Assembly (NCBI RefSeq): GCF_000002985.6
Contig: NC_003281.10
Location: forward strand, 13,144,001 to 13,208,000
Origin: Caenorhabditis elegans
Lineage: Eukaryota > Nematoda > Chromadorea > Rhabditida > Rhabditidae
Length of the DNA: 64,000 nt
Reading direction: 5' to 3'
The position numbers and the translations under genes are program-made. Below the pieces are notes generated by a model that did not search any database, was not told where the DNA came from, and saw nothing but the letters and a program-made list of their open reading frames with translations. Positions 44,136 through 60,453 of the stretch are shown here, piece after piece. The first letter of the stretch is position 1; the number at the start of each line of letters is the position of its first letter.

Positions 44136-47100
44136 ATGATTATATTCAAGAAAAAGGCGATATTAAAAGTTCTCCTCTTGGTTCCAGTTTTTTGGATTTG
44201 CTCGTTGATTTTTTTCGCAGCAACCAGCAATGATAGTAGCCAGGTATCAAAAATCAAAAATAAAAAAAATAAAAATGTGATTAAAATCCCATTTTCAGAT
44301 CGGATCAAATAACGATCTCGCGAATAAAATTGCGGAGGCGAATTTCCACCCGAAAGCCGCGAAACAAGACGTAATTCAAGGATTTGGGCCGCCGATTGAG
44401 CCGGAACCTGTCGTAGAGAATAATAAAGTGGAAGAAGAAGAGCAACCCGGCGGGAACTTGGCCAAACCAAAATTTATGGTCGATCCGAACGATCCGATTT
44501 ATAAAAAAGGAGACGCAGCGCAAGCCGGAGAGCTTGGAAAGGCAGTTGTCGTCGATAAAACTGTGAGAATTTGATTATTCTTGAGGAATAACGGTTCTTT
44601 GAACTTGTGGACTCAAAATGTGCTCAAATTCTCAAAATTGCGAAAAAAATGAGCCAAAAATGACTTAAATTGGCCAAAAATTACCAAAAATGATTTTAAA
44701 AATGAAAATATTCCGTATAGATTTTTAATCATTTTAGGGCAATTTCGGTCATTTTTTACTGATTTTTGGCTGATTTTCCATCATTTTAAGTAATTTTAGT
44801 TAATTTTAGGCCAAATTTGGTTATTTTTGGTCATTTTTGGTCAATTTCTGTCATTTTTGGCCGATTTTTAATCATTTTTGGTCAAATTTGGTCATTTTTC
44901 AGAAATTTTTAGTCACTTCAGCGCTCGGAAATTGCCGAAAATTGGCCAATAATGACTAAAAATGACCGAAATTTGCCGAAAATGATTAAAATGTATATAA
45001 TATACCGTATTTCTTCTATTAATATGGCCTCCCTATTAGACTTGCACTCCCTATTAGTATTGCTCCTTGAAAACCCTCCGAAAATTAGTATTGCAGTTAG
45101 TGTTGCACTCCCTAATAGTCTTGCATCTACTTTTTTTTTTTGGTACAAACCCACCCTACTAATTTTGAGATTTTAACAACATTTTTTGCCTACTTTGCAA
45201 CAATTTTGGTAAAATTTCTATGAAATTGAAGTTATTGTACCTTTTTGTTGCAATTACAATCAAATTTTCTGAATTTTCACATAAGATTCGAGTTTTTTCA
45301 GGAAAAAAACTAGTAAGCTCAAAGTCAGAAAATGTTCTGAAAATTAGTATTGCACTCCCTAATAGTCTTGCACTCCCTATTAGTATTGCAAGCGGAAGAC
45401 CATCGAAAAATATTATTGCAGCCATATTAATAGAAGAAATACGGTACATATTTTCGGTCATTTTTAATCATTTTTGGCCGATTTTCGATTATGCTTAGTC
45501 ATTAAAAAAAAGACTAAAAAATTACCAAATTTGGTCCAAAATCACCAAAAATGACTGAAATTGGACAAAAATGAATAAAAATTTCTAAAATATTTAATAT
45601 TTTAAATATTTATGTCATTTTTGGTCATTTTTCGCCTATTTTGGGCCAAATTTGGTCATTTTTCAGACATTTTTAATCACTTCAGTGCTCGGAAATTTTC
45701 GAAAATTGGCCAAAAATGATTAAAAATGATGTCTAAAATATTTTAAATATCAAGTTATTTTAAATATGAAATATTTTCGACATTCCTGGCCAATTTCGGT
45801 AATTTGTAGTCATTTTCAACCGACTGCTGATTATTTTTGGTCCGTTTAGGTATTTTTAGCAAAATTTAGAAATTTTAGTAATTTTTGGCCGAATTTTCAT
45901 TTTTTTTTTTGGTCACATTAGGTAATTTTTAGGTGATTTTGGGTAATTTTTAGTCATTTTTATCCAATTCGCGATCATTTTTTAGCCACTCTAGGTCATT
46001 TTAGGCCGATTTCGGCCCCCAAAATCTAAGATTCTAGTGGAAATTAGTTCTTTTTTTTTCGAAATTTTGATGTTTTGCCTTTAAAATCAACGAAAAAAAA
46101 AAACTTTATTTTCTTTCTAATTTTCAGAAACTATCGACCGAAGAAAAGGCAAAATACGACAAGGGAATGCTCAACAACGCTTTTAATCAATACGCATCTG
46201 ATATGATATCAGTACATCGAACTTTGCCAACTAATATTGATGCTGAGTGGGTTTTTTTTTATTCCAAAATTCATAAAAATCGAAAAATTAATTTTTTTAA
46301 ATTTCCCTAAAAAACTGAAGTTTTTTTGTGATTTTCCGGAAAAAAAGAAGAAAAATCGAATTTTTTCAAAAAATTTTCTTTTTAAAAAAATCGAAAAATC
46401 GATTTTCTTGCAATTATCTGTAAAAAACGAGAAGTCGATTAAAAAAATCCTAAAAAAGAAAAAATCAATTTTTTTTTTGTTTTTCATTTAAAAAACTGAA
46501 GTTTTTTCTGATTTTCCGAAAAAAAAAAACGAAAAAAAAAATCGAATTTTTAAAAGAATTGCCTTAAAAAAAATGAAAAATCGAAATTTTTAAAATGTTC
46601 TAAAAGAACAAAAAATCTAAATTTTTCGATTTTCCGAAAAATCGAAAATATCGACGTTTTTTCATTTTCCGAAAAAAAAACGAAAAAAAAATCGAATTTT
46701 TAAAACAATTGTTTAAAAAAAAACAAAAAATCGAAAAATTTTTTAAATTTCCCTAAAAACTGAAGTAAACGAAAAATCGATTTATTCCAAATAATTTTCC
46801 TTTAAAAAAAATCGAAAAATCGATTTTCTTGCAAATATCTGTAAAAAAACGAGAAGTCGATTTAAAAAAATCCTAAAAAAGAAAAAATCAATTTTTTTTT
46901 TGATTTTCCGGAAAAAAAACGATTTTTTTTTTGAAAATTGGCTAAAATTCCAAAAAATTTTCAAATTTTTGCTCATTTTGATCAGAAAAAATATAGGAAA
47001 ACCTAGAAATTTCTTTTACAAAAATGTTGTCGATTTACGAAGTATTTTGTACTACACGTGGACTATTTTTTGCAGTTTTTGGCTGGAATTCTTATCTTTT

Positions 47101-50100
47101 TCTGATTCTTAAAAAACATTTTAAAGTTCAAAAAAAAACTTAAAAATTCTCGAATTTTCTGTATTTTTGAGAGAAAAACGGAAAAAAAGTAAAAAATTCT
47201 GTACAAAAAAGCATTTTTTCTGCAAAATAATTTTAGAGAAACAAAGAAAAAAAAATCAATATTTGGAAAAATTTAATTTCTTTTTTTGCAGATGTAAAAC
47301 CGAAAAATACAATGAAAATCTGCCGCGAACGTCTGTAATCATCTGTTTCCACAATGAAGCATGGTCAGTGCTTCTCAGAACAGTACACTCGGTTCTTGAA
47401 CGTACTCCCGATCATTTACTGGAAGAAGTTGTGCTGGTTGATGATTTTTCGGATATGGATCACACGAAACGTCCGTTGGAAGAATACATGTCACAGTTTG
47501 GTGGAAAAGTCAAGATTTTGAGAATGGAGAAGCGTGAGGGATTGATTCGAGCAAGACTTCGTGGAGCTGCCGTCGCTACTGGAGAAGTGTTGACTTATTT
47601 GGATTCACATTGCGAGTGCATGGAAGGTAAAAATTAAATTTTCGATCAAAATTTGTACGGGATAAATTTAATTTAGCCTTGATTTTGGAGTTACTGGAAA
47701 TTTCGCGATTTTCGACGTTTTTCGACGAAAAAATACAGTTTTCCTGGTCTTGATAAAACAAATTTTCAAAAAAAAAAAAATCAACAAAAAATCAATTTTG
47801 TGTCAAAAAATGGAAGGTAAAAATTAAATTTTCGACCAAAACTGTATTGGATAAATTTAATTTAGCCCCGATTTTGAAATTACTGGAAATTTTTTCGACG
47901 TAAAAAGCCCGTTTTCCTGGTCTTGTCACGACAAATTTTGGTGAACTCCTTTTATTTTTGTGAAGCTAATAAAATACAAAATGCAGTATAAAAAAAGAAA
48001 AAGTGAAACACAATTGCATAGGCTTTCATTTGAGCATATGCGAAAATTCGATGCTTGGTAAGAAAAGTTTGGGCAAAATTTTTTGTAAAAATGCCAAAAC
48101 CCCTGAAAAAAAAATTTTTAGCAAAAGAAAAACCAAAAATTCAATTTTTCATCAAAATTCCAAAAAAAATCCATTTTCGGTCAAAAAATCTTAAAAAAAC
48201 CAAAAAAATCAGTTTTTCGTCAAAATACCGAGGAAGTCAATTTTTTGGCAAAATGCCAACAAAAAAAAAACAAAAAAATCACTTCTTCGTCAAAATACCA
48301 ACAAAACATCAATTTTTTGTCAAAAAATGGAAGGTAAAAAAATTTTTAAATTTTTTTTCAAATTTTCGATCAAAATTTGTACGGGATAAATTTAATTTAG
48401 CCTCGATTTCAAAATTACTGGAAATTTTTCGCGATTATCGACGTTTTTCGACCAAAAAAAATACAGTTTTTCTGGTCTTGACACGACAAATTTTGGTGTG
48501 CGCAGTAGCCTCTTTTCAATTTTATGAATCTAATAAAATTAGATAATGCAGCAAAAAAAGAAATGAAAAGAAATAAAATTGAAAAAGTTCGGATTTTTTT
48601 TAAAGAAAAAAAATCGTGAAATTTTGCAGTTGGGTACCTGAAAACCCTCAAAAAACCAGCTGAAAGTCGTAAAAAAGGCAAATTTTCAATTTTAAAAAGT
48701 GTTTTGCACAGTGTATTTTTTTTTATTTTTGTATATTTTTGAAAAAAAACAGCTTTATTTATGTCGAATTGAGTCGAATTTCATTTTTTTAAACTTTTTA
48801 GAAGAAAAAATTATTGAAAACCACAAAAAAAAACAATGTTTTCTTCAAAATACAAAAAAAAACCCAAAAAAATCAATTTTTAGAAAAAACAATCGATGTT
48901 TCTTCGAAAAACCAAAAAAAAACCAACAAAAAAATCAGTTTTTCGTCAAAGTAAAACACTAAAAAAAAACAAAAGCTAAAAAAAAAAATAAAAAAATAAA
49001 TCATTTTTTGGCAGAATACCAAAAAATTCAATTTTTCATCAAAATACTGAAATAAAAATCCATTTTTAGTAAAAATTTTAGTAAACAAAAACCTAAAAAA
49101 AAAAACTTCTTCGTTAAATATATTATTAAATACCTACCCCGTCAAAAAGACTTTTAAAAAATCGATTTTTTTTTGTGAAAAAAAAAACCATTTAAAAAAC
49201 CAGAATAAAAACAAGATTTTTTGTGGAAATACTGAAAAATCTTTTTTTTTTTCAAAAAACCAAGAAAAAAAAATCAAAATACCATTTAAAAAACCAAAAA
49301 CAAAATCAATTTTTTGACCAATATTCCGAAAAAATAAATTTTTGCCAAGATAACCAAAAAATAAGTAATATTTTGTCAAAAAAAAGTCAATTTTCCGTCA
49401 AAATACTGAAATACCAAAAAAAATAAATTTTTGATAAAAAATAAAATAAAATAAATTTTTAAAACAATTTTTCGCCAAAATTCCAAAAAATTCAATTTTT
49501 TTGCAAAAAGCCTTTTAAAAAATCGATTTTTTTGTGAAAAAAAACCATTTAAAAAACCAGAATAAAAACAAGATTTTTTGTGGAAATTCCAAAAATTTTT
49601 TTTTCGAAAAACTAGCAAAATACGATTTTTCGCCAAAAAACAATTATTTTTTCCAAGAAAAAAAAACCTAAAAATTCACCAATATATTGGGGCCGTTTGG
49701 AGCAATTTAACCCTATAACACTGCAACTTTTTCCTCACGAGGGACGAGGAAAAGTGGTTTCTAGGCCATGGCCGAGGTCCGACAAGTTTCATCGGCCATT
49801 TATCTTGCTTTGTTTTCCGCCTGTTTTCTTTTGTTTTTCACAGCTTTTTCCCGTTTTTTCTTATTAAAACTGATAAATAAATACTTTTCGCAGATGCTAA
49901 AACAATTTTCAAGTAAAAAAATTATGTATTCAGTGGGCAACCAGCGGTGAAAGTGGGCATTGTAATATGATGGATTACGGGAATACAAAACCTAAACTTT
50001 TTCTGAAACATGATACATATGCTGCTTAGATGCTGAAATTACCTGATTTTCATAACGAGACCGCTGAAAAAGTTTTGAGGTTTTCAAAATTCAACTTTTT

Positions 50101-53100
50101 TGGTGAAAAAGTCGAGATTTTCGCACAAAAAGTTGAATTTTGAAAACCTCAAAACTTTTTCAGCGGTCTCGTTATGAAAATCAGGTAATTTCAACATCTA
50201 AGCAGCATATGTATCATGTTTCAGAAAAAGTTTAGGTTTTGTATTCCCGTAATCCATCATATTGCATTGACCACTTTCACCGCTGCTTGTCCACTGAATA
50301 CATGATTTTTTACTTGGAAATTGTTTTAGCATCTGCAAAAAATATTTATTTATCAGTTTTATTAAGAAAAACGAAAAAAAATCGATGAAAAACGAAAGAA
50401 AACAGGCGGAAAACAAAGCAAGATAAATGGCCGCTGAAACTTGTCGGCCCCTCGGCCATGGCCTAGAAACCACTTTTCCTCGTCCCTCGTGAGGAAAAAG
50501 TTGCAGTGTATAAAAATCAATATTTCAGGATGGATGGAGCCTCTACTCGACCGAATAAAACGTGATCCAACTACAGTAGTCTGCCCAGTAATTGATGTGA
50601 TCGATGACAATACATTCGAATATCATCATTCAAAAGCCTACTTCACAAGTGTCGGTGGATTCGATTGGGGACTTCAATTCAATTGGCACTCGATTCCGGA
50701 GAGAGATCGCAAGAATCGAACACGTCCAATCGATCCAGTACGATCACCTACGATGGCTGGTGGTCTCTTCTCGATTGATAAGAAATATTTCGAAAAACTC
50801 GGAACTTATGATCCTGGATTCGATATTTGGGGAGGAGAGAACTTGGAGCTGTCCTTTAAAGTACGGGGAAATTGAAATTTTTTTTTTTTCCGAAAAAAAA
50901 AACGAAAAAAAATCGAATTTTTGAAAGAATTGCCTTAAAAAACGAAAAATCAAAATTAAAAAAAAATTTCCTTTTAAAAAACCAAAAACCAATTTTTTGT
51001 TGATTTTCCAGAAAAAAAAAACGAAAAATCAATTTTTTTTTCTAATTTTCATGAAAAAACGGAAATTTTTTGTGATTTTTATTGAACAAAAATTTATTTT
51101 CCGGAAAATCGATTTAAAAAAATTTCCGAAAAAAAGAGAAATCGATTTTTCAATTTCCATAAACAACGGAAATTTTTTGTGATTTTCCGGAAAAAAAAGA
51201 AGAAAAATCAATTTTTTTTTATATTCCGGAAAAACGAAAAATTAATTTTTTTAAAATTTCCCTAAAAAACTGTGTTTTTTTTTGTGATTTTCCGAAAAAA
51301 AAACGAAAAAAAAATCGAATTTTTAAAACAATTGCCTTAAAAAAAAACAAAAAATCGAAAATTTTTTTTAATTTCCCTAAAAACTGAAGTAAACGAAAAA
51401 TCGATTTATTCCAAAAAATTTTCCTTTAAAAAAAAATCGAAAAATCGATTTTCTTGCAATTATCTGTAAAAAAACGAGAAGTCGATAAAAAAAATCAATT
51501 TTTTTTGAAAATTGGCTAAAATTCCGAAAAATTTTCAAATTTTTGCTCATTTTGATCAGAAAAAAATATAGGAAAACCTAGAAATTTCTTTTACAAAAAT
51601 GTTGTCGATTTACGAAGTATTTTGTACTACACGTGGACTATTTTTTGCAGTTTTTGGCTGGAATTCTTATCTTTTTCTGATTCTTAAAAAACATTTTAAA
51701 GTTCAAAAAAAAACTTAAAAATTCTCGAATTTTCTGTATTTTTGAGAGAAAAACGGAAAAAAAGTAGAAAATTCTGTACAAAAAAGCATTTTTTCTGCAA
51801 AATAATTTTAAAAATCAAAGAAAAAAAAATCAATGTTTGGAAAAATATTTTAGAAAATTGGAAAAGAAAATTTTGTCAAAAAAGATTTTTAAAAATATTA
51901 AACAAATTTAATTTTTTAATTTAAAAAAAAAAAATTGAAATTCACGAAAAAAAATTTTTTTGGACTTTCGGCTCAACATTTTTTTTTTCCAGATCTGGAT
52001 GTGTGGAGGTACACTGGAAATCGTGCCATGCTCTCACGTTGGACACGTCTTCCGTAAGCGTTCACCGTACAAATGGAGAACTGGAGTCAATGTGCTGAAA
52101 AGAAATTCGATTCGTCTGGCTGAAGTTTGGCTCGATGATTATAAAACATACTATTACGAGAGAATCAATAATCAATTGGTAAAAGGATTTGAGACCCCAC
52201 GAAAAAGGGCAATCTGCGGGAAGAGGATCTACCAACGCCTTTTTTTCCGATGAAAAAAAAAAAAGTTTTTTGAAAAATTTATTTTCTCATTAAAAAGCGG
52301 AGCAATTTATTCGCAAAATTGTTTCAAAAAATTATTCATTTCAATTTATATCGATTTTTTCTTGAAAAACATAAGAAAATATAGAAATTTCTACAGTGCA
52401 TTTTTTCATTTTTTTCCACTTCTACGAATTTAAAGGGGGCGCATTCATGCGGAAGGGTCTTGCCGCGCATTCAGTCATCATTTTTAACAGTTTCGATCTA
52501 CGCGTGATCTCCGCGAATTTTGAACAGACTTTGTTAAAAATGATGACTAAATGCGCGGCAAGACCCTTCCGCATAAATGCGCCCCCTTTAAATTCGTAGA
52601 AGTGGAAAAAAAATGCACTGTACATTTTGAGATATTTTGAAAAAAAAAACTGAATTCGTTTTTCCGGAACATTTTTTTCCCGGAAAATTAATAATAAATT
52701 TCAATATTTCGTCCAGATTTTTTGAAATTTTCATTAAAAAAAAAAAGAAATTTCTACATTTTGAGATATTTTGAAAAAAAATTAATTTGTTTTCCAAATG
52801 TTTTTTTATTTGGAAAATGAAAAATTGGATTTTCAAAAAAAAAGAAGTTTTTTTTTTAATTGAGAAAAATGACCAAAGTTTCAAGATATATGTAAATATA
52901 AATAAAAAATAAAAATTCTAAACATCGAAACCAAAAAAAATCGAATTTTGTTTTATATTGAACTTTTTTAGAAAAAAATCATATTTTTCTAGAAAAATTA
53001 TTTGTAAAATATGATTTTTTTTAAAGTTGGAAGTACAGCAAGGAGATTTTTTGGTCTCAAAATTAAAAAAAAAACCAATTTTCCATCAAAATATTAAAAA

Positions 53101-56100
53101 AATACAAAAAATCAATTTTTCGTCAAAAAACCAACAAAAAAAATTAATAAATCAATTTTTCATTAAAATACCAAAAAAAAATTAATAAATCAATTTTTCA
53201 TCAAAATACCAAAAAAAAACCAAAAAATCAATTTTTCATCAAAATACCAAAAAAAACCAAAAAAAAAAAAATTTTTGCCAAAATATAAAAAAAATCCAAA
53301 AAATCAATTTTTCATCAAAATATTTAAAAAATACAAAAAATCAATTTTTCGTCAAAAAACCAAAAAAAAAATTAATAAATCAATTTTTGCCAAAATACCA
53401 AAAAAAAACCAAAAAATCAATTTTCGTTACAATATCAAAAAAAAAACCAATAAATCAATTTTTTGCCAAAATACCAAAAAAAAACCCCAAAAAAAGTCCC
53501 AACCCTAGCTGGACCCGTGATCCAGATCCCCCTCTAGTAGATTCCGCTTTCAGTGGCGCCTCTCAAAATTAGTAGTGGAAACAAATCTATGAAAACTATA
53601 ATTTTCCAGGGTGATTTCGGAGACATTTCCTCTCGTAAAAAGCTTCGTGAAGATCTTGGCTGTAAATCATTCAAATGGTATTTGGATAATATTTACCCGG
53701 AACTTTTTGTCCCTGGAGAATCTGTTGCCAAAGGAGAGGTACGTCTAATTTTTTGTTTAACTAAAAAAAATTTCATATAAAAATCCTTTTTTTCCATAGA
53801 AAAATAAGTTATCTCTAATATTGTAGGACCTCTAATTTAATTCTAACTGAAAATTTGCGATGCTGCACGGAAAAAGAGGCGGAGCCTCGTTTTGCAAACC
53901 TGCGGCGCGTTTTTTATGCTAAAATGCTTGATTTTGGATTGTTTTTTTTTTCGAAAACGAGATCAATTTTTTCGCCAAAAACACGAAAAAACGGGAAAAT
54001 TAAGAGTTTTTTTCGCAAAAATTCAAAAAAAAATTTTTTTTCACTAAAAACACGAATTTTCAGACAAAATTTGATCATTTTCATCGGAAAAAACTCAGAA
54101 AAATTAGCGAAAATGGTCCAAAATTGACAAATTTCAGCTAAAAACTGCAAAATTATTTTAAAAAACGCGAATTTTCCCACAAAATTTGACCATTAAAAAA
54201 AAAGACTTTAAAAAAATCAGTCGAAAAATGCGCCGCACATTTGCAAAACGCCGCCACGCCTCTTTTTCTGTGCGGCACTGCAATGTCCCGCTTCCCCTAA
54301 AGTGCTTGACTTACAATTGGGATTTTTTAAATTTTTTTTTTTGGCAAAAATCTTATTTAATTTCTGGGTACGTCTTTTTGGTTCAGCCCCCTTAATTCGT
54401 TGTGTACGTCCATTATTAATTTTTAATTTTTTGAAAAAAGAAATATCGATTTTTTTTGACTAACAAAAACAAAACAAATAAGTTTAAAATTTAATTTGAA
54501 AAAAAAAACTATATGATTATCGATCTCTGACCGTGGTACTCTCTGTGTATAAATATATTTTTTCAAAAAAATTTTCCTTTCGTGCCGGATTACTGTACCT
54601 ACATTAAAGTTTTCACGTCCTGTCATCGTCTTTGCATGAATTTGTATGTTATTGCTGTAATTTTTCCAAAAAAAAAAAACATTTAATTCAGTGATGTGCA
54701 GCGAATTTTTTCGGCAAATGCACAAAGCTGGCTTATTTCAACATGATAATTTAACATTTTTGATCTAAAATTGACATAGAAATGTAGAAAAAGGTTCGTT
54801 CCATCTTAAAATAACATTTTTTTTTGTTGAAAGCATTGAAAAAACCCCTCAACAGTACTTTAAAGTTGCCGTTTGTCGAAAAGGAATAGTTTAAAAATTT
54901 TCGACAAACGGCAACTTTTAGGCACTATTGAGGGGGCTTTTAAAGGCTTTCAACAAAAAAAATGTTATTTTAAGATGGAACGAACCTTTTTCTACATTTC
55001 TATGTCAATTTTATTAGGTCTCCAAATAAGTTCCGGGTCAAAAATCATAACTTTGTTCGCTGCGAATCGATTTTTATGAAATTGTGGGAATTTATGTTAT
55101 CAACCATGATCTTTCATTTGACAATAGTCACAAAATTTTTTGGCCGTCCGAAGTGCTCGTACTCGGAGCCAATTTTTTCAGGCATTTTTCAGATCTCGTT
55201 TCTTTTCAGGTTTCAACTGAGGTTTGTGTGCGGATATTGTTTAATTTAGTACACAATGTAAGAAAACAAGAAAGTTTGAAAAAAAATCCGTCCAAAAAAA
55301 TTTTTTTTGTCGATCGTCAAAAAATCTTCAAAACAATTTTTGTCGAAAATTCTTGATTTTTCATACAAAAATGATGTAACCATGTGCAAACTATTTTTAC
55401 ACATACAAAAAATTTCAATTTAGTGGGTCGCACTAAAAAAAATAACAAAAAACACAGCTTTTTCTAACTATTTTCGAGTTTTTGGAGTATTTCTCGAGAT
55501 CCAAATTTCATACTCAAATGTTTTGTATGTGTAAAAATAGTTTGCACATGGTTACATCATTTTTGTATAAAAATTCAAGAACTTTCGACAAAAATTTTTT
55601 TGCAGATTTTTTGACGTGCGACAAAAAAATTTTTTTCGGACGGATTTTTTTTCAAACTTTTCTTGTTTTCTCACATTGTGTACTAAATTAAGCAATATCC
55701 GCACACAAACCTCAGTTGAAACCTGAAAAGAAACGAGATCTGAAAAATGCCTGAAAAAATTGGCTCCGAGTACGGGCACTTCGGACGGCCAAAACATTTT
55801 GTGACTATTGTCAAATGAAAGATCATGGTTGATAACATGAATTCCCACAATTTCATAAAAATCGATTCGCAGCGAACAAAGTTATGATTTTTGATCCGGA
55901 ACTTATTTGGAGACCTAATAGATCAAATATGTTAAATTATCATGTTGAAATAAGTAGTTTTGTGCCTTTGCCGAAAAATGCCGCACAGCCCTGATTTGAT
56001 TTGATTCCTTAATTTCACACTGCTTGAAATCCTAGAATGTATGCTTTGAATGCTGTTTTGCATGATTTTTCATCCATTGTTACCACCAGCCCCTATAACA

Positions 56101-59100
56101 ACAATGCTAACAACCAGTTTTTCCTCATTTAATACAAAAAACCAAGTACATCGAAATGTGAGCACATAGTTTTAATGATTATTTTAGTGTTAACCCGTTT
56201 CTTTCACAAATTTAATATTACCGGTACAGAGAGTGTAGATAGTTAGAGAGTGCCAGACATCCGGGACCCAATGGGGCGGGGCGCGCGGAAGAGACGATTT
56301 GTGTCGATTTACGAAATTTTCCTCGTTGTCATCATTTCGTAAATCGACACAAATCGTCTTCCGCGCACCCCGCCCCGTTGGGTCCCGGATGTCTGGCACT
56401 CTCTAACTATCTACACTCTCTGTACCGGTAATATATTAGAGTTGCGAAATCTGAGACATTGCCGTTGTTAGACTAAAAATGAGCCAGGGTGTGCTTCAAA
56501 ATTTTGGAGAAAAGGCTTTTTTTCAGCTTAAATTTCCAATTTTGTCAGTGCAATTCTTTCAAAATTTGAGATTTTTGCTGTGAAAAAATATTTAAGAAAA
56601 TTTATACAGATTTCGCTATTCTATTTTACTGTTTCACAAGAGCACATATATCTAATTCAAGGCTTGTATTGAATAATTTATTTTCAAAAAACAAAAAAAA
56701 CCCATTTTTCTATCTCTTTATCTATCTATCTATCTATCTTTGTCTTGATGTGGTTGTTTGGTGTTTGAAGGTGCGCAACAGTGCGGTGCAACCCGCACGA
56801 TGTCTCGATTGCATGGTAGGCCGGCACGAAAAGAATCGTCCCGTCGGTACGTACCAGTGTCACGGTCAGGGCGGAAATCAGGTTAGTCTCTCGGAGTTGG
56901 ATCCTTTGGTTTCAGCTGCGAAACGCGCAAACGTCCCAGTGTCTGGATAGTGCAGTCGGAGAGGAGGTCGAGAATAAGGCGATCACGCCGTATCCGTGTC
57001 ATGAGCAAGGAGGAAATCAGGTTGGAAACGGGAAACTGATGCTGATGCTGATGCTGTTGATGTTTGGATCGAAATGAAGATCGTGGAGAGAGCATCGGAG
57101 AGAGCCTATAGAAATTTTTCGGGAATTTTCACTTAGAACACCCATCTATCGCTTATAAGGGATTTATTATTCAAACAAAAAAAACTGAAAATAAGTACAA
57201 ATTGGTCTGAAATACCACAAACAAAAACAGCAAAAAATCAACCAATCAGCGTCTTCGAACTCCGCCCACGCCGTCTGATTGGTTGAAAAATGGGCGGAGC
57301 AAATCGCTGATTGGTCTGGCAGTTTAGACTTTAGAGAGGATTAAAAAGCGAAAAAGAAAATGTATTTTCAATGAGAACTACAAAACCAATCAGCAACCGC
57401 CCACTATTCAACCAATCAGACGAAGTGTGCGGAGTTTGAAGCCGCTGATTGGCTTGAAGATGGGCGTAGCTTCTTAATTTTTATGGCATTCAAACATGAA
57501 GTTTATCCAAGTTTGTAGGCCATGCAACCCCCGCACGGTTTTGTTTGCAAAAAAAAGTGTGCGGGGGTTGCGAAATTTATACTTTCTGTTCCGCCCACTG
57601 AATCCTGTTCTAGTGGGGGTCTCCAATTTTGGCCTGGAACGAATCAGCGTCTTCGAACTCCGCCCACGCCGTCTGATTGGTTGAAAGGTGGGCGGAGTGA
57701 ATCGCTGATAAGTCTAGCAATTTAGACCCATTCTCATTTGCGACCGAGGTAGCACTATAATGAGAACTGCAAAACCAATCAGCGATTCGCTCCGCCCACT
57801 CTTCAACTAATCAGCGTCTTCGAACTCTGCCCACTCCGTCTGATTGGTAGGAAAATGGGCGGAGCGAAGCGTGGATTGGCCTTGAAGTTGTCACTTTAGA
57901 AGTAATTTAGAAGTATAAAGAAAACTGTAAAATAACAACTGCTAAACCAATCAGCGATTTGCTCCGCCTAACCAATCAGCCGAAGTGGGCGGAGCGCGAA
58001 GACGCTGATTGGTTTAGCAGTTTTTATTTTAGATTTTTCTTTATACTTTTCAACTACCTCTACAGTGAACTTCACGACCAATCAGCGATTCGCTTCGTCC
58101 ACTATTCAACCAATGAGACGAAGTGGGCGGAGCTCGAGGACGCTGATTGGCTGGGCAGGTTTTCAGGGGAAAAAAATCAAATAGAGAATTACACTGCGCT
58201 AGAAAACTAAATTATGTGTTGCTGGGATCGTGTGTTTGGTGAAAATGAAAATGAATGGCTCTTTTTTTTTCAAATTTTCTCAGTTATTTAATGTTCTTCC
58301 AACAAGATTACTAATTCACAAGATATGTATACACCGAAAGTCTGTTTTTCTTTTCATGTTCACCAAATCACATTCTCTCAACATCACATCTCTTTTTCCT
58401 TTTAAATTAATTAGAAGTTTACTACTATAAGTATTTATTTTAAATAGATTTAAATAAAAATGAAATTAGAAAATCGCATAACACAGATGCGGAACGCTGG
58501 CGGCAAAAACCGTCAATGTATCGACTACAAACCGTCAGGCGGGAAGACAGTCGGCATGTATCAGTGCCATAATCAGGGTGGAAATCAGGTTTGGAAAAAA
58601 AAAATGGATATACGCAAAATTATTTTTTTATAGTTTGGTCTTAAATGGTTTAATTAATAATAATTCAAAAAGTTCAGTTTGAATAGATATTTCAGTATAA
58701 AACATGCGAAACACGTGGTGGCAGGCTGTCCCATTACGGTTTGATCTACAAAAAATGCGGGATTTTTAACCCCAAAAAAATGTGACGTCAGCACGTTCTT
58801 TACCATGCCAAATCAGATTGAAAACTCTACGTCTCAACTCCCGCATATTTTGTAGATCTACGTAGATCAAACCGAAATGGGACACTCTGACACCGAAACA
58901 CAAAATTCTGAGAATGCGTATTGCACAACATAATTGACGCGCAAAATATAACTATCTCGTAGCGAAAACTAGAGTAATCCTTTAAATGACAACGGTAGCG
59001 CTTGCCGTAAATCGACACAGGCGCTACAGTAGTCATTTAAAGGATTACTGTAGTTTTCGCTACGAGATATAGTTATATTTTGCGCGTCAAATATATTGCG

Positions 59101-60453
59101 GAATACGCATTCTCAAAATTTTGTGTTCTCGTACACTCAAAATAATAAAACTGCGTGGCTTATATGCAGAAAACCCAAAATAAAAGCCCGCCTTTTTTTT
59201 CTCGGAAAATCACGGATTAAAAGCCAAAATCGGTACCCCAACCAGTATCAGCCGCCGACATCTCACGGATTCCGCGCGCCGCTATGGTTAACTGACCGTG
59301 AGAGTGGTGAGCTGTCCCCGCCCTCTGCTAGTTAAACATAGCGGCTCGCGCAATCCGTGAGATGTCTGCGGCTGATGTTGGTTGGGGTACCGATTTTGGC
59401 TTTTCATCCGTGTTTTCCAAAACAAAGGCGGAGCCTCAATTTTGGGTTTTCTGCATACACGCCACGCAGTTTTATTATTTTGAGTGTGTTTACGGGAAAC
59501 ACAAAATTCTGAGAATGCGTATTGCGCAACTTATTTGACGCGCAAAATATAACTATATCTCGTAGCGAAAACTACAGTAATTTATTTAATGACTACAGTA
59601 GCGCTTGTGTCGATTTACGGCAAGAGCTACAGTAGTCATTTAAAGGATTACTGTAGTTTTCGCTACGAGATATAGTCATTTTTTGCGCGTCAAATATGTT
59701 GCACAGTACGCATTCTCAGAATTTGTTTTCTAGCGCGAAAATCAATATCTCCGATGCTCTCTCTCTCCCAGGTAGGTTTTAATGAACAATTTCAGATATT
59801 TGCGTGCGCGATTTCAGATTCTAAGAAACCCAGCTTCACACCACGTAACATTTTCCAATTTTCAGTACTGGATGCTGTCGAAAGACGGAGAAATTCGACG
59901 AGACGAATCGTGTGTTGATTATGCCGGTTCTGATGTTATGGTATTCCCATGTCATGGAATGAAGGGAAATCAAGAATGGCGGTACAATCATGATGTATGT
60001 TCTCGATGGACTACTTGAAATGGCAGAGTTTCAGCAAGAGTGTTGAGAACATCGGCCATGACCACGACGCAGCAGCGTGCGGAGCGGCTGAGACAATAAA
60101 TTTTATTCAATTTTTCGCGTGATTTCTTATCAATTTAGCTCATATCAGAATCAGATAAAATGATAAGAACTATAGGAAAAAAAATATGCGGCCGAGGTTC
60201 ACAGCCCTCTCGCTGAAACTCTTCCATTTCAAAATACGTCTCTCTGGACTCTAAAAGCTTAATAAAGATTCAATTATTTTTTCAGACTGGCCGACTCCAG
60301 CACGCTGTCTCACAAAAATGCCTAGGCATGACAAAGGATGGGGCGAAGCTTGAGATGGTCGCCTGCCAGTATGATGATCCTTATCAACACTGGAAATTCA
60401 AGGAATACAATGAAGCAAAGGCCATCGAGCATGGAGCCAAACCGCCGAGCTAA
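44136..60453 (+). CDS. gly-5: Polypeptide N-acetylgalactosaminyltransferase GLY-5
   Basis: Exons are 44136-44243, 44299-44562, 46128-46246, 47292-47626, 50529-50860, 51993-52178 and 53610-53738, then one of 56771-56881, 56916-57020 or 58487-58588, then 59866-59994 and 60286-60453. The longest form is 626 aa. Residues about 8-29 are the signal anchor of a type II Golgi protein; a Pro/Glu-rich stem follows. The GT-A catalytic domain shows CFHNEAWS, the metal-binding DSH (for DxH) and the GalNAc-T motif [13 protein letters not shown]. The C-terminal ricin-type trefoil has repeats CLD/CID (alternative exon), CVDYAGSD and CLGMTKDG. It transfers GalNAc from UDP-GalNAc to Ser/Thr, starting mucin-type O-glycans. 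The alternative exons change only the first lectin repeat, so binding of already glycosylated substrates may differ between isoforms. AATAAA follows at 60879. Introns are long and repeat-filled. Confidence 0.97.
44575..46060. repeat. GGTCATTTTTGGCC-type simple array in gly-5 intron 2
   Basis: Loose repeats of TCATTTTTGGTCAATTT and AAAATGACCGAAATTTGCC on both strands, interrupted by a family G element at 45003-45445. It resembles the arrays at 23620-26795. Confidence 0.7.
45003..45445. mobile_element. Foldback repeat, family G (copy 2)
   Basis: TACCGTATTTCTTCTATTA ends and repeated CTCCCTATTAG phrases, as at 14047-14480. It splits a simple-repeat array, so it inserted after that array formed. 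Confidence 0.85.
46670..47272 (+). repeat. Intronic duplication, copy 1 (gly-5 intron 3)
   Basis: Nearly identical to 51297-51848 over about 480 bp, including GCTCATTTTGATCAGAAAAA, the GTACTACACGTGGAC phrase and TTGAGAGAAAAACGG. Copy 1 has about 50-60 bp extra near 46865-46925. It ends 20 bp before exon 4. Confidence 0.85.
47627..49718. repeat. gly-5 intron 4 repeats: duplicated donor segment and 30-bp A/T units
   Basis: A segment beginning TGGAAGGTAAAA and running through GATAAATTTAATTTAGCC occurs at 47621, again near 47810 and 48326. Between and after, units of about 30 bp such as CAATTTTTCATCAAAATACC plus A-runs continue to 49680. There are no coding exons inside. Confidence 0.75.
49719..50508. 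mobile_element. Foldback repeat, family C (copy 2)
   Basis: Same element as 3819-4609, with a GAGGTTTTCAAAATTCAAC tip in place of GAGGTTTCCACAATTCAAC. Its right end lies 20 bp upstream of the exon 5 acceptor (AG at 50527-50528). Confidence 0.85.
51297..51848 (+). repeat. Intronic duplication, copy 2 (gly-5 intron 5)
   Basis: Partner of 46670-47272 in the same orientation, about 4.6 kb away. Confidence 0.85.
52391..52622. mobile_element. Foldback repeat, family E (copy 2)
   Basis: CTACAGTGCATTTTTTC and GAAAAAAAATGCACTGTAC ends. The arms carry TTTAAAGGGGGCGCATT and AGGGTCTTGCCGCGCATT. The open frames here are palindrome artefacts. Confidence 0.85.
53030..53500. repeat. 30-bp A/T-phased tandem array in gly-5 intron 6
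   Basis: Units of AATCAATTTTTCATCAAAAT plus ACCAAAAAAAA repeat about fourteen times, with A-runs and T-runs about 10 bp apart. Confidence 0.8.
53856..54287. mobile_element. Foldback repeat, family J
   Basis: GCACGGAAAAAGAGGCGG and CCACGCCTCTTTTTCTGTGC ends, with CGGCGCGTTTTT/GCGCCGCACATTTGC inside. It lies in gly-5 intron 7. Confidence 0.7.
54692..55994. mobile_element. Nested 1.3-kb palindrome
   Basis: The outer arms (AACATGATAATTTAACAT and complement) enclose two further inverted structures. One at about 54790-55015 is centred on GTTTGTCGAAAAGG/TTCGACAAAC. The other at about 55090-55855 has CAACCATGATCTTTCATTTG arms and a GTTTGCACATGGTTACATCA stem. It looks like one foldback inserted in another. 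Confidence 0.75.
56214..56434. repeat. Near-perfect 221-bp hairpin
   Basis: Arms of about 104 nt differ by about two substitutions and a 2-nt indel. They include GGGACCCAATGGGGCGGGG and TTTGTGTCGATTTACG. The loop is about 10-14 nt. It lies 337 bp before alternative exon 8a. Confidence 0.9.
56712..56742. repeat. (CTAT)n microsatellite
   Basis: TATCTATCTATCTATC run about 30 bp before alternative exon 8a. Confidence 0.75.
56771..56881 (+). other. gly-5: gly-5 alternative exon 8a
   Basis: 111 nt (37 codons), phase 0 at both ends, starting [14 protein letters not shown] and ending CHGQGGNQ. The acceptor TTTGAAG is weak compared with TTTTCAG. The donor is GTTAGT. Confidence 0.85.
56916..57020 (+). 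other. gly-5: gly-5 alternative exon 8b
   Basis: 105 nt (35 codons), phase 0, starting [12 protein letters not shown] and ending CHEQGGNQ. It has a strong GGTTTCAG acceptor. Only 34 nt separate it from exon 8a. Confidence 0.88.
57235..58160. repeat. Six CCAATCAGCG/CGCTGATTGG blocks between gly-5 exons 8b and 8c
   Basis: Blocks start near 57240, 57385, 57645, 57775, 57945 and 58078. Each is about 80 bp and self-complementary at the ends, with CTCCGCCCAC/GTGGGCGGAG and GTCTTCGAACTC inside. A separate 12-bp perfect stem, CAACCCCCGCAC/GTGCGGGGGTTG, lies at about 57526-57570. Confidence 0.85.
58487..58588 (+). other. gly-5: gly-5 alternative exon 8c
   Basis: 102 nt (34 codons), phase 0, starting [14 protein letters not shown] and ending CHNQGGNQ. 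The acceptor AACACAG is weak and purine-rich. It lies 1.47 kb after exon 8b. Confidence 0.87.
58707..58895. mobile_element. Foldback repeat, family I (copy 3)
   Basis: TGTCCCATTACGGTTTGATC and complementary right arm with TGACGTCAGCACGTTCTT between. It abuts a family A element. Confidence 0.75.
58896..59740. mobile_element. Two family A elements flanking a unique palindrome
   Basis: Family A copies at about 58900-59130 and 59498-59735 flank a palindrome (59132-59490) whose arms read CACTCAAAATAATAAAACTG, CCAACCAGTATCAGCCG and CATCTCACGGATTCCG. All lie in the intron before exon 9. Confidence 0.75.

Follow-up and report, generated by a model that had tools for sequence, protein, structure and literature searches.

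Three alternative copies of a lectin-repeat exon in Caenorhabditis elegans gly-5, separated in part by a gap shorter than usual introns and possibly by a candidate RNA bridge

We analysed a window of 64,000 nucleotides of the Caenorhabditis elegans genome (C3:13144001-13208000), with whole-genome searches covering 100,286,401 bases on 7 contigs. Its forward strand carries gly-5, a gene of ten coding exons in which one of three alternatives serves as exon 8. The product is a polypeptide GalNAc-transferase, an enzyme that attaches sugars to proteins. The features of the gene, in positions of the window, are as follows (a slash marks an exon edge).

44136-44243, 44299-44562, 46128-46246, 47292-47626, 50529-50860, 51993-52178 and 53610-53738, + strand: gly-5 coding exons 1-7, up to the linker ...SVAKGE, one open frame across all junctions
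56704-56739, + strand: ATTTATCTATCT-type repeat 5' of 8a; the 8a acceptor is preceded by 110 nt lacking AG
56771-56881, + strand: exon 8a, basic alpha repeat, net charge +3; 111 nt, 37 aa; acceptor TTTGAAG, donor CAG/GTTAGT
56882-56915, + strand: 8a-8b gap, GT...AG, 34 nt; contains the 8a donor and the 8b acceptor
56916-57020, + strand: exon 8b, acidic alpha repeat, net charge -3; 105 nt, 35 aa; acceptor GTTTCAG, donor CAG/GTTGGA
58487-58588, + strand: exon 8c, basic alpha repeat, net charge +4; 102 nt, 34 aa; weak acceptor AACACAG, donor CAG/GTTTGG
59866-59994 and 60286-60453 (stop TAA), + strand: exons 9 and 10, the remaining lectin domain, open frame

With 8a, 8b or 8c in place, the product is 626, 624 or 623 aa long, each a single open frame, and the 8a form is identical, letter for letter, to P0005 (C. 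elegans Polypeptide N-acetylgalactosaminyltransferase 5). The initial annotation had described the three exons as phase-0 copies of the lectin alpha repeat, and coordinates, phase and motif, all read directly, bear this out: the translations have the common pattern RN..C[LI]D..CH-QGGNQ, with pairwise identities among 8a, 8b and 8c of 17, 15 and 15 of 37 alignment columns, and the trio thus has the homologous, adjacent exons of equal phase by which mutually exclusive tandem duplicated exons are recognised. It had also held that the frame is unable to enforce exclusion, which proved right, since the frame stays open with 8a+8b, 8a+8c, 8b+8c, all three or none; frame-based exclusion is thereby ruled out, and retention of the 34-nt gap, which gives a stop at codon 551, was the sole stop-giving combination among those tried. 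The arrangement of three copies is real, and it lies beyond chance because the same three repeat types occur in the same order in other nematodes. Hagen and Nehrke reportedly described gly-5 a, b and c cDNAs in 1998. The tandem-exon event is already in print, gly-5 being among the genes listed with tandem duplicated exons in the available part of PMC9741552, in agreement with the mention of reported isoforms in the initial annotation. In a C. elegans paralogue (L011, C3:7915913-7916098), linker and alpha repeat are matched in one unbroken frame, so a separate alpha exon is not general among C. elegans GalNAc-transferases.

The grading of acceptors proposed earlier, with 8b strong and 8a and 8c weak, was correct: against TTTTCAG, 8b matches at 6/7 positions, 8a at 5/7 (with an AAG end) and 8c at 3/7, and the acceptors of the 8 other coding exons (2-7, 9 and 10) match at 6/7 or 7/7, exon 9 at 7/7. 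At least 3/7 is reached by 73% of the 503 intronic AGs of gly-5, and 8c is no better than most. The donors of all three alternatives read CAG/GTT, with U1 pairing of -8.2, -6.9 and -6.9 versus -1.9 to -7.2 for the 8 others; weak alternative donors were ruled out, this pairing being at least equal to that of most other gly-5 donors. With the UNC-75 cores taken from the available text of PMC12005262, UNC-75, MBNL, FOX, SUP-12 and STAR motifs in six stretches of 34-100 nt by the exons gave clear enrichment only for UCUAUC, present 5 times in the 100 nt preceding 8a, a number that 0/200 shuffles reach; the other counts were 3 YGCU after 8b (14/200 shuffles), 2 UUGU before 8a (102/200) and 1 UGUUG after 8b (39/200). 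Spacings between AGs of at least 107 nt make up 5/246 in introns 7, 8b-8c and 8c-9, and the UCUAUC run and the 110-nt AG-free stretch (56704-56770) suggest a site of protein binding or a branch point far from the acceptor. The introns within 53739-59865 are also dense in inverted repeats (48 pairs, the longest 55012-55308 with 55624-55920, 297-nt arms, 94%); each of the 25 pairs listed lies inside one intron, so these would shorten introns without pairing across alternative exons.

The distance from 8a to 8b is 34 nt as read directly, just as the initial annotation gave it, and its statement that this is shorter than usual C. elegans introns stands, the smallest introns quoted for the species in the available part of PMC7706725 being about 40 nt; excision of the gap as an intron is therefore unlikely. 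A gap under the minimal intron is the hallmark of steric hindrance by close proximity, one named mechanism of exclusion, described for mammals in the available text of PMC3585155. Since the frame is unable to exclude and 34 nt is less than about 40 nt, steric exclusion is the best reading for 8a and 8b, and a sound one that we think likely to hold. A YTNAY-like site was absent within 60 nt upstream of 8b, which is weak evidence in C. elegans, where no strong branch consensus is known. Gene predictions from C. remanei, C. sp. 36, C. bovis and C. angaria (P0002, P0001, P0004 and P0007) join a to b, so an intron between them passed the predictors there, and so short a gap may be confined to C. 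elegans and its close relatives; the C. briggsae prediction P0003 joins b to c.

How 8c might be kept apart was left unexplained by the initial annotation, and a search for complementarity between introns found a concrete candidate, a perfect 16-nt complementary pair flanking this exon.

57086-57101, + strand: candidate 5' arm of the bridge, GAGAGAGCATCGGAGA, 65 nt downstream of exon 8b
59748-59763, + strand: candidate 3' arm of the bridge, reverse complement of 57086-57101, about 100 nt upstream of exon 9

The exact 16-mer occurs at only 2 places in the 100.3-Mb genome, which are the two arms in opposite orientation, and with at most 1 mismatch it occurs at 9 places versus 3 for the reversed pattern. 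Stacking of the helix (-34.7 kcal/mol) is the strongest of 45 gly-5 intron pairs, the next being -27.1; 0/1000 dinucleotide shuffles reach this energy and 1/300 the run length, and cofolding of the arms gains 32 kcal/mol. Among 55 duplexes of near-exon segments the pair also comes first (z -2.73, 0/60 shuffles), with the next two near it (z -2.38 and -2.36, each 2/60). The genomic null, 200 kb of the same chromosome arm, gave an equally strong helix in 31/220 overlapping placements of the same geometry, and the strongest helix was isolated in 9/220, comprising 8 distinct sequences; copy numbers for 5 of the 8 showed four repeats (221, 26, 93 and 3448 copies) and 1 pair unique over the 24 bases tested, and the remaining 3 are repeats as judged by eye. 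A unique isolated pair of this geometry thus turned up in about 1 of 220 placements, per the sequences checked. We regard the bridge as a candidate, strong against shuffles and moderate against the genomic null.

With the arms paired, the intron from the 8b donor to exon 9 would keep 167 nt outside the arms, versus 2845, and 8c would lie in a 2646-nt loop; a perfect complement in both flanking introns, here of 16 nt, is one of the features by which RCM-promoted skipping of the zip-2 type is recognised. In a fold of +/-100 nt the 5' arm is mostly in local pairing. A CTGATG repeat right after the 8b donor (57035-57060) could pair with the 5' arm (GATGCT/AGCATC, by eye) as a possible competitor, and the best partner of the 3' arm outside the 57086 arm and its overlaps lies in exon 8b (56929-56978, -18.8 kcal/mol), an exon that the arm could touch. 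Several other structures were rejected: a full docking-selector array with one selector per exon, no selector serving 8c being found among the 12 best partner windows of the docking arm; a stem of intron 7 with intron 8b-8c looping out 8a and 8b, which is near shuffle level (119/1000 as strong); and a stem of intron 7 with intron 8c-9 (2/1000), both stretches of which are already in local inverted repeats. The IRBIS nematode list of complementary pairs, as given in the available part of PMC4174434, holds 241 pairs.

Protein searches (best 120 of 761, 120 of 190 and 120 of 495 matches) yielded 265 different proteins, which are cluster representatives. Ninety-three were marked by hand as transcript-like, a status inferred from source (lgn, jgi or ena, including two ncbi rows and one lgn+uniref row) and contig size (under 7 kb), with lgn row P0228 excluded for its 14-kb contig; the nematode-like rows among them number 14, of which one is named (Ascaris suum), and near-identical sequences are frequent in the arthropod rows. 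Among the matches listed, all 93 transcript-like proteins have one alpha repeat (90 parsed, 3 by eye), and each of the 90 parsed has an insert of 35-40 residues. For 165 other parsed proteins among the matches listed, the motif gives two or three repeats in 41, one in 123 and none in 1 (C. brenneri P0015); by insert length, 48/165 reach at least 60 residues, one of which, P0059, is a parsing artefact. A further 7 proteins that could not be parsed were excluded from these counts.

Nematode repeats fall into types that we named by likeness, a being CLD..GRHEKNKPVGLYPCH, b C[VL]DSAVGEE..PYPCH and c NRGGGSK.CLDW...GLYWCH. Nematodes account for 21 of the 41 multi-repeat proteins, with the orders a-b in 11, b-c in 8 and a-b-c in 2 (Necator and Syphacia), and no other order among these 21 listed. 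The types are seen in Caenorhabditis, hookworms, Steinernema, Panagrolaimus, Strongyloides, cyst nematodes and filarial worms, though not every type in each, and type b is seen in Plectus among the matches listed. A tree built from 61 chosen repeats places nematode c in a single clade with support (99/92). Types a and b fall short of strict clades (3 and 2 changes, respectively), yet their repeats group by type and not by species, and since this grouping extends across many taxa, the a-b-c trio probably predates much of nematode evolution, as judged by the sequences compared. Outside the nematodes, lepidopteran pgant9-like predictions (P0203, P0118, P0214 and P0238) have, between the A and B types or next to them, a divergent alpha repeat as a third copy, and these may represent an independent array of three exons. 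Two proteins of the horsehair worm Gordionus on one contig (P0133 and P0170) are identical at 550/648 aligned positions and differ along their whole length, so they are gene copies and not exon copies.

The three repeats also differ in charge. Net charge, counted as K+R minus D+E, is +3 for 8a, -3 for 8b and +4 for 8c, and +2, -2 and +2 between C[LI]D and CH; gly-5 therefore has alternative alpha-repeat exons of opposite charge, which is one mark of a PGANT9-type charge switch. In the chosen 61, with types assigned by position in joined predictions and in a few single rows by likeness, nematode a is positive in 11/11, b negative in 10/14 and zero in 4/14, and c positive in 8/8, and arthropod A is positive in 10/10 and B negative in 6/10 and zero in 4/10, such that the sign follows the type in 53/53 nematode and arthropod rows when the 8 neutral of 24 acidic-type rows are counted. 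Among other rows, a tardigrade prediction has +3 then -2, the single repeats of three molluscs and two Gordionus genes have +2 or +3, and vertebrate GALNT1 has zero. The best solved matches of the lectin part are PGANT9A (148 bits) and PGANT9B (140 bits), with GalNAc-T1 at 68, and the variable stretch of PGANT9A/B has edges identical to those of gly-5 exon 8 (GE/..GGNQ/YWM). According to the available text of PMC6115407, fly exons 8A (positive) and 8B (negative) provide a charge switch beside the active site, as seen in structures and in vitro peptide preference; in that part, C. elegans is mentioned solely in a reference title. Among the open-licence full texts matched by a search, as judged by title and abstract start, none dealt with a comparison of gly-5 with pgant9. 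Among the matches listed, the basic repeat precedes the acidic one in joined predictions from insects, crustaceans, a tardigrade and nematodes, and this order, apparently common to nematodes and arthropods (including pgant9 by its 8A/8B charges), goes beyond the published event.

Several known systems resemble parts of this arrangement. Drosophila pgant9 8A/8B (PGANT9A/B, PDB 6E4Q/6E4R) shares with gly-5 the alpha-repeat stretch, its edges and the basic and acidic versions, and its splicing is tissue-specific according to the available part of PMC6115407; gly-5 differs in its third exon, 8c, and in the 34-nt gap. Human GALNT13 and Drosophila Pgant5, of the same gene family, likewise have tandem duplicated exon substitution events (PMC9741552, as far as available), but the Pgant5 swap lies in the catalytic domain and not in the lectin repeat (available part of preprint PMC12776162), so that among fly genes pgant9 corresponds more closely to the gly-5 trio. 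C. elegans unc-32 also has three mutually exclusive exons in one cluster (4a-4c), although their exclusion is ascribed to regulators and the order of intron removal, with neither a sub-intron gap nor a bridge named in the available text of PMC3585155. C. elegans zip-2 has a short perfect complement (13 nt) in flanking introns that promotes exon skipping in vivo (available part of PMC8330042), but there several exons are skipped and circRNA is made, whereas gly-5 would skip one of three alternatives. In the docking-selector clusters of Dscam, 14-3-3zeta and Mhc, an element next to a constant exon base-pairs with another within the cluster, as proposed for gly-5, and several such genes have the docking site on the downstream side, like gly-5 (PMC6071210, available part); in gly-5, however, one clear selector was found and not one per exon.

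Taken as a whole, the explanation that we put forward, namely one repeat per mRNA, steric separation of 8a from 8b and a swap of charge, with the bridge treated separately, seems to us evenly poised between right and wrong, and its parts differ in strength. That gly-5 has three mutually exclusive copies of the alpha-repeat exon, with one per mRNA in C. elegans, is very probable on indirect evidence, because the transcript-like relatives are all single-repeat (93/93) and 41/165 of the others have two or three. There would probably be too little room in the 34 nt for U1 on the 8a donor and U2/U2AF on the 8b acceptor to be bound together, and too little sequence for excision as an intron. By analogy with fly PGANT9A/B, the swap would give the loop from CLD to CH another charge and thereby lead to glycosylation of other charged substrates, a step towards which we incline slightly. 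For 8c we offer a more tentative step, in which its poor acceptor would cause skipping by default and the 16-nt bridge would loop it out, reducing the distance from the 8b donor to exon 9 from 2845 to about 170 nt, so that a donor of 8a or 8b, once committed, would be joined to exon 9 and not to 8c; the 8c form would then depend on a factor able to loosen the bridge and to repress 8a and 8b. Exclusion might instead be loose, with double-inclusion mRNAs made and tolerated because they are in frame. Every double inclusion is indeed open, and four of the 41 non-transcript proteins listed with two or three repeats are arthropod 'isoform X' models with both A and B (P0060 Cherax, P0122 Nasonia, P0198 Vespula and P0204 Anopheles), which could rest on RNA evidence and may mean that exclusion in arthropods is looser; but among the matches listed 0/93 transcript-like proteins have more than one repeat, and most joined proteins look like gene-finder chains, as we infer, which makes loose exclusion in gly-5 very improbable. 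Exclusion of 8c by splice-site strength and regulators alone is a far more serious competitor, to which we give a little less than an even chance: the strong acceptor of exon 9 would be preferred, tissue factors would set the order of intron removal and the complementary pair would be incidental. The acceptor scores (3/7 for 8c versus 7/7 for exon 9) favour it, as do the explanation of the unc-32 trio by intron excision order (PMC3585155, as far as available) and the finding that strong helices of the bridge geometry are not rare on the chromosome arm; the 16-mer, however, has its two genomic places in precisely the introns flanking 8c, and regulator motifs by the exons lacked clear enrichment, the UCUAUC run before 8a excepted.

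The history of the a/b pair is a related question. The pair could have arisen once, before the split of nematodes and arthropods, with gly-5 and pgant9 inheriting one ancient charge switch, a possibility that we hold to be real but somewhat doubtful. The shared exon edges agree with a single origin, as do the basic-then-acidic order in joined predictions of insect, crustacean, tardigrade and nematode and the equal charge signs in the chosen rows, but the 37 columns cannot decide: AU tests do not reject a common group of nematode a+b+c (p-AU 0.535, its tree 1.02 log units higher), nor a+c+A with tardigrade A (0.527) or b+B with tardigrade B (0.509), and they give 0.434 for all arthropod repeats together. 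In addition, the available part of PMC9741552, which lists GALNT13, Pgant5 and gly-5 together, takes cross-phylum events as convergent. The fullest combination, in which an alpha-repeat array older than the split would act as a charge selector for O-glycosylation and the C. elegans trio would be separated not by frame but by two stacked physical devices, a sub-intron gap for 8a/8b and a gene-unique 16-bp RNA bridge for 8c, is unlikely to hold in its entirety.

Beyond the known event, this analysis adds the recurrence of a, b and c across nematodes, the alternation of charge with its arthropod parallel and the candidate bridge for 8c. Where three exons exclude one another without protection by the frame, the counting of exons by the cell is put to a strict test, and gly-5 offers for its study two proposed, separable devices, either of which a small edit could disrupt in an animal that is easy to manipulate. 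Where database entries for GLY-5 or PGANT9 show two or three alpha repeats, the protein may be a chain made by gene prediction. If the charge reading is true, the single fly result on PGANT9 would become a wider rule, by which GalNAc-transferases choose their substrates through the swap of a lectin repeat.
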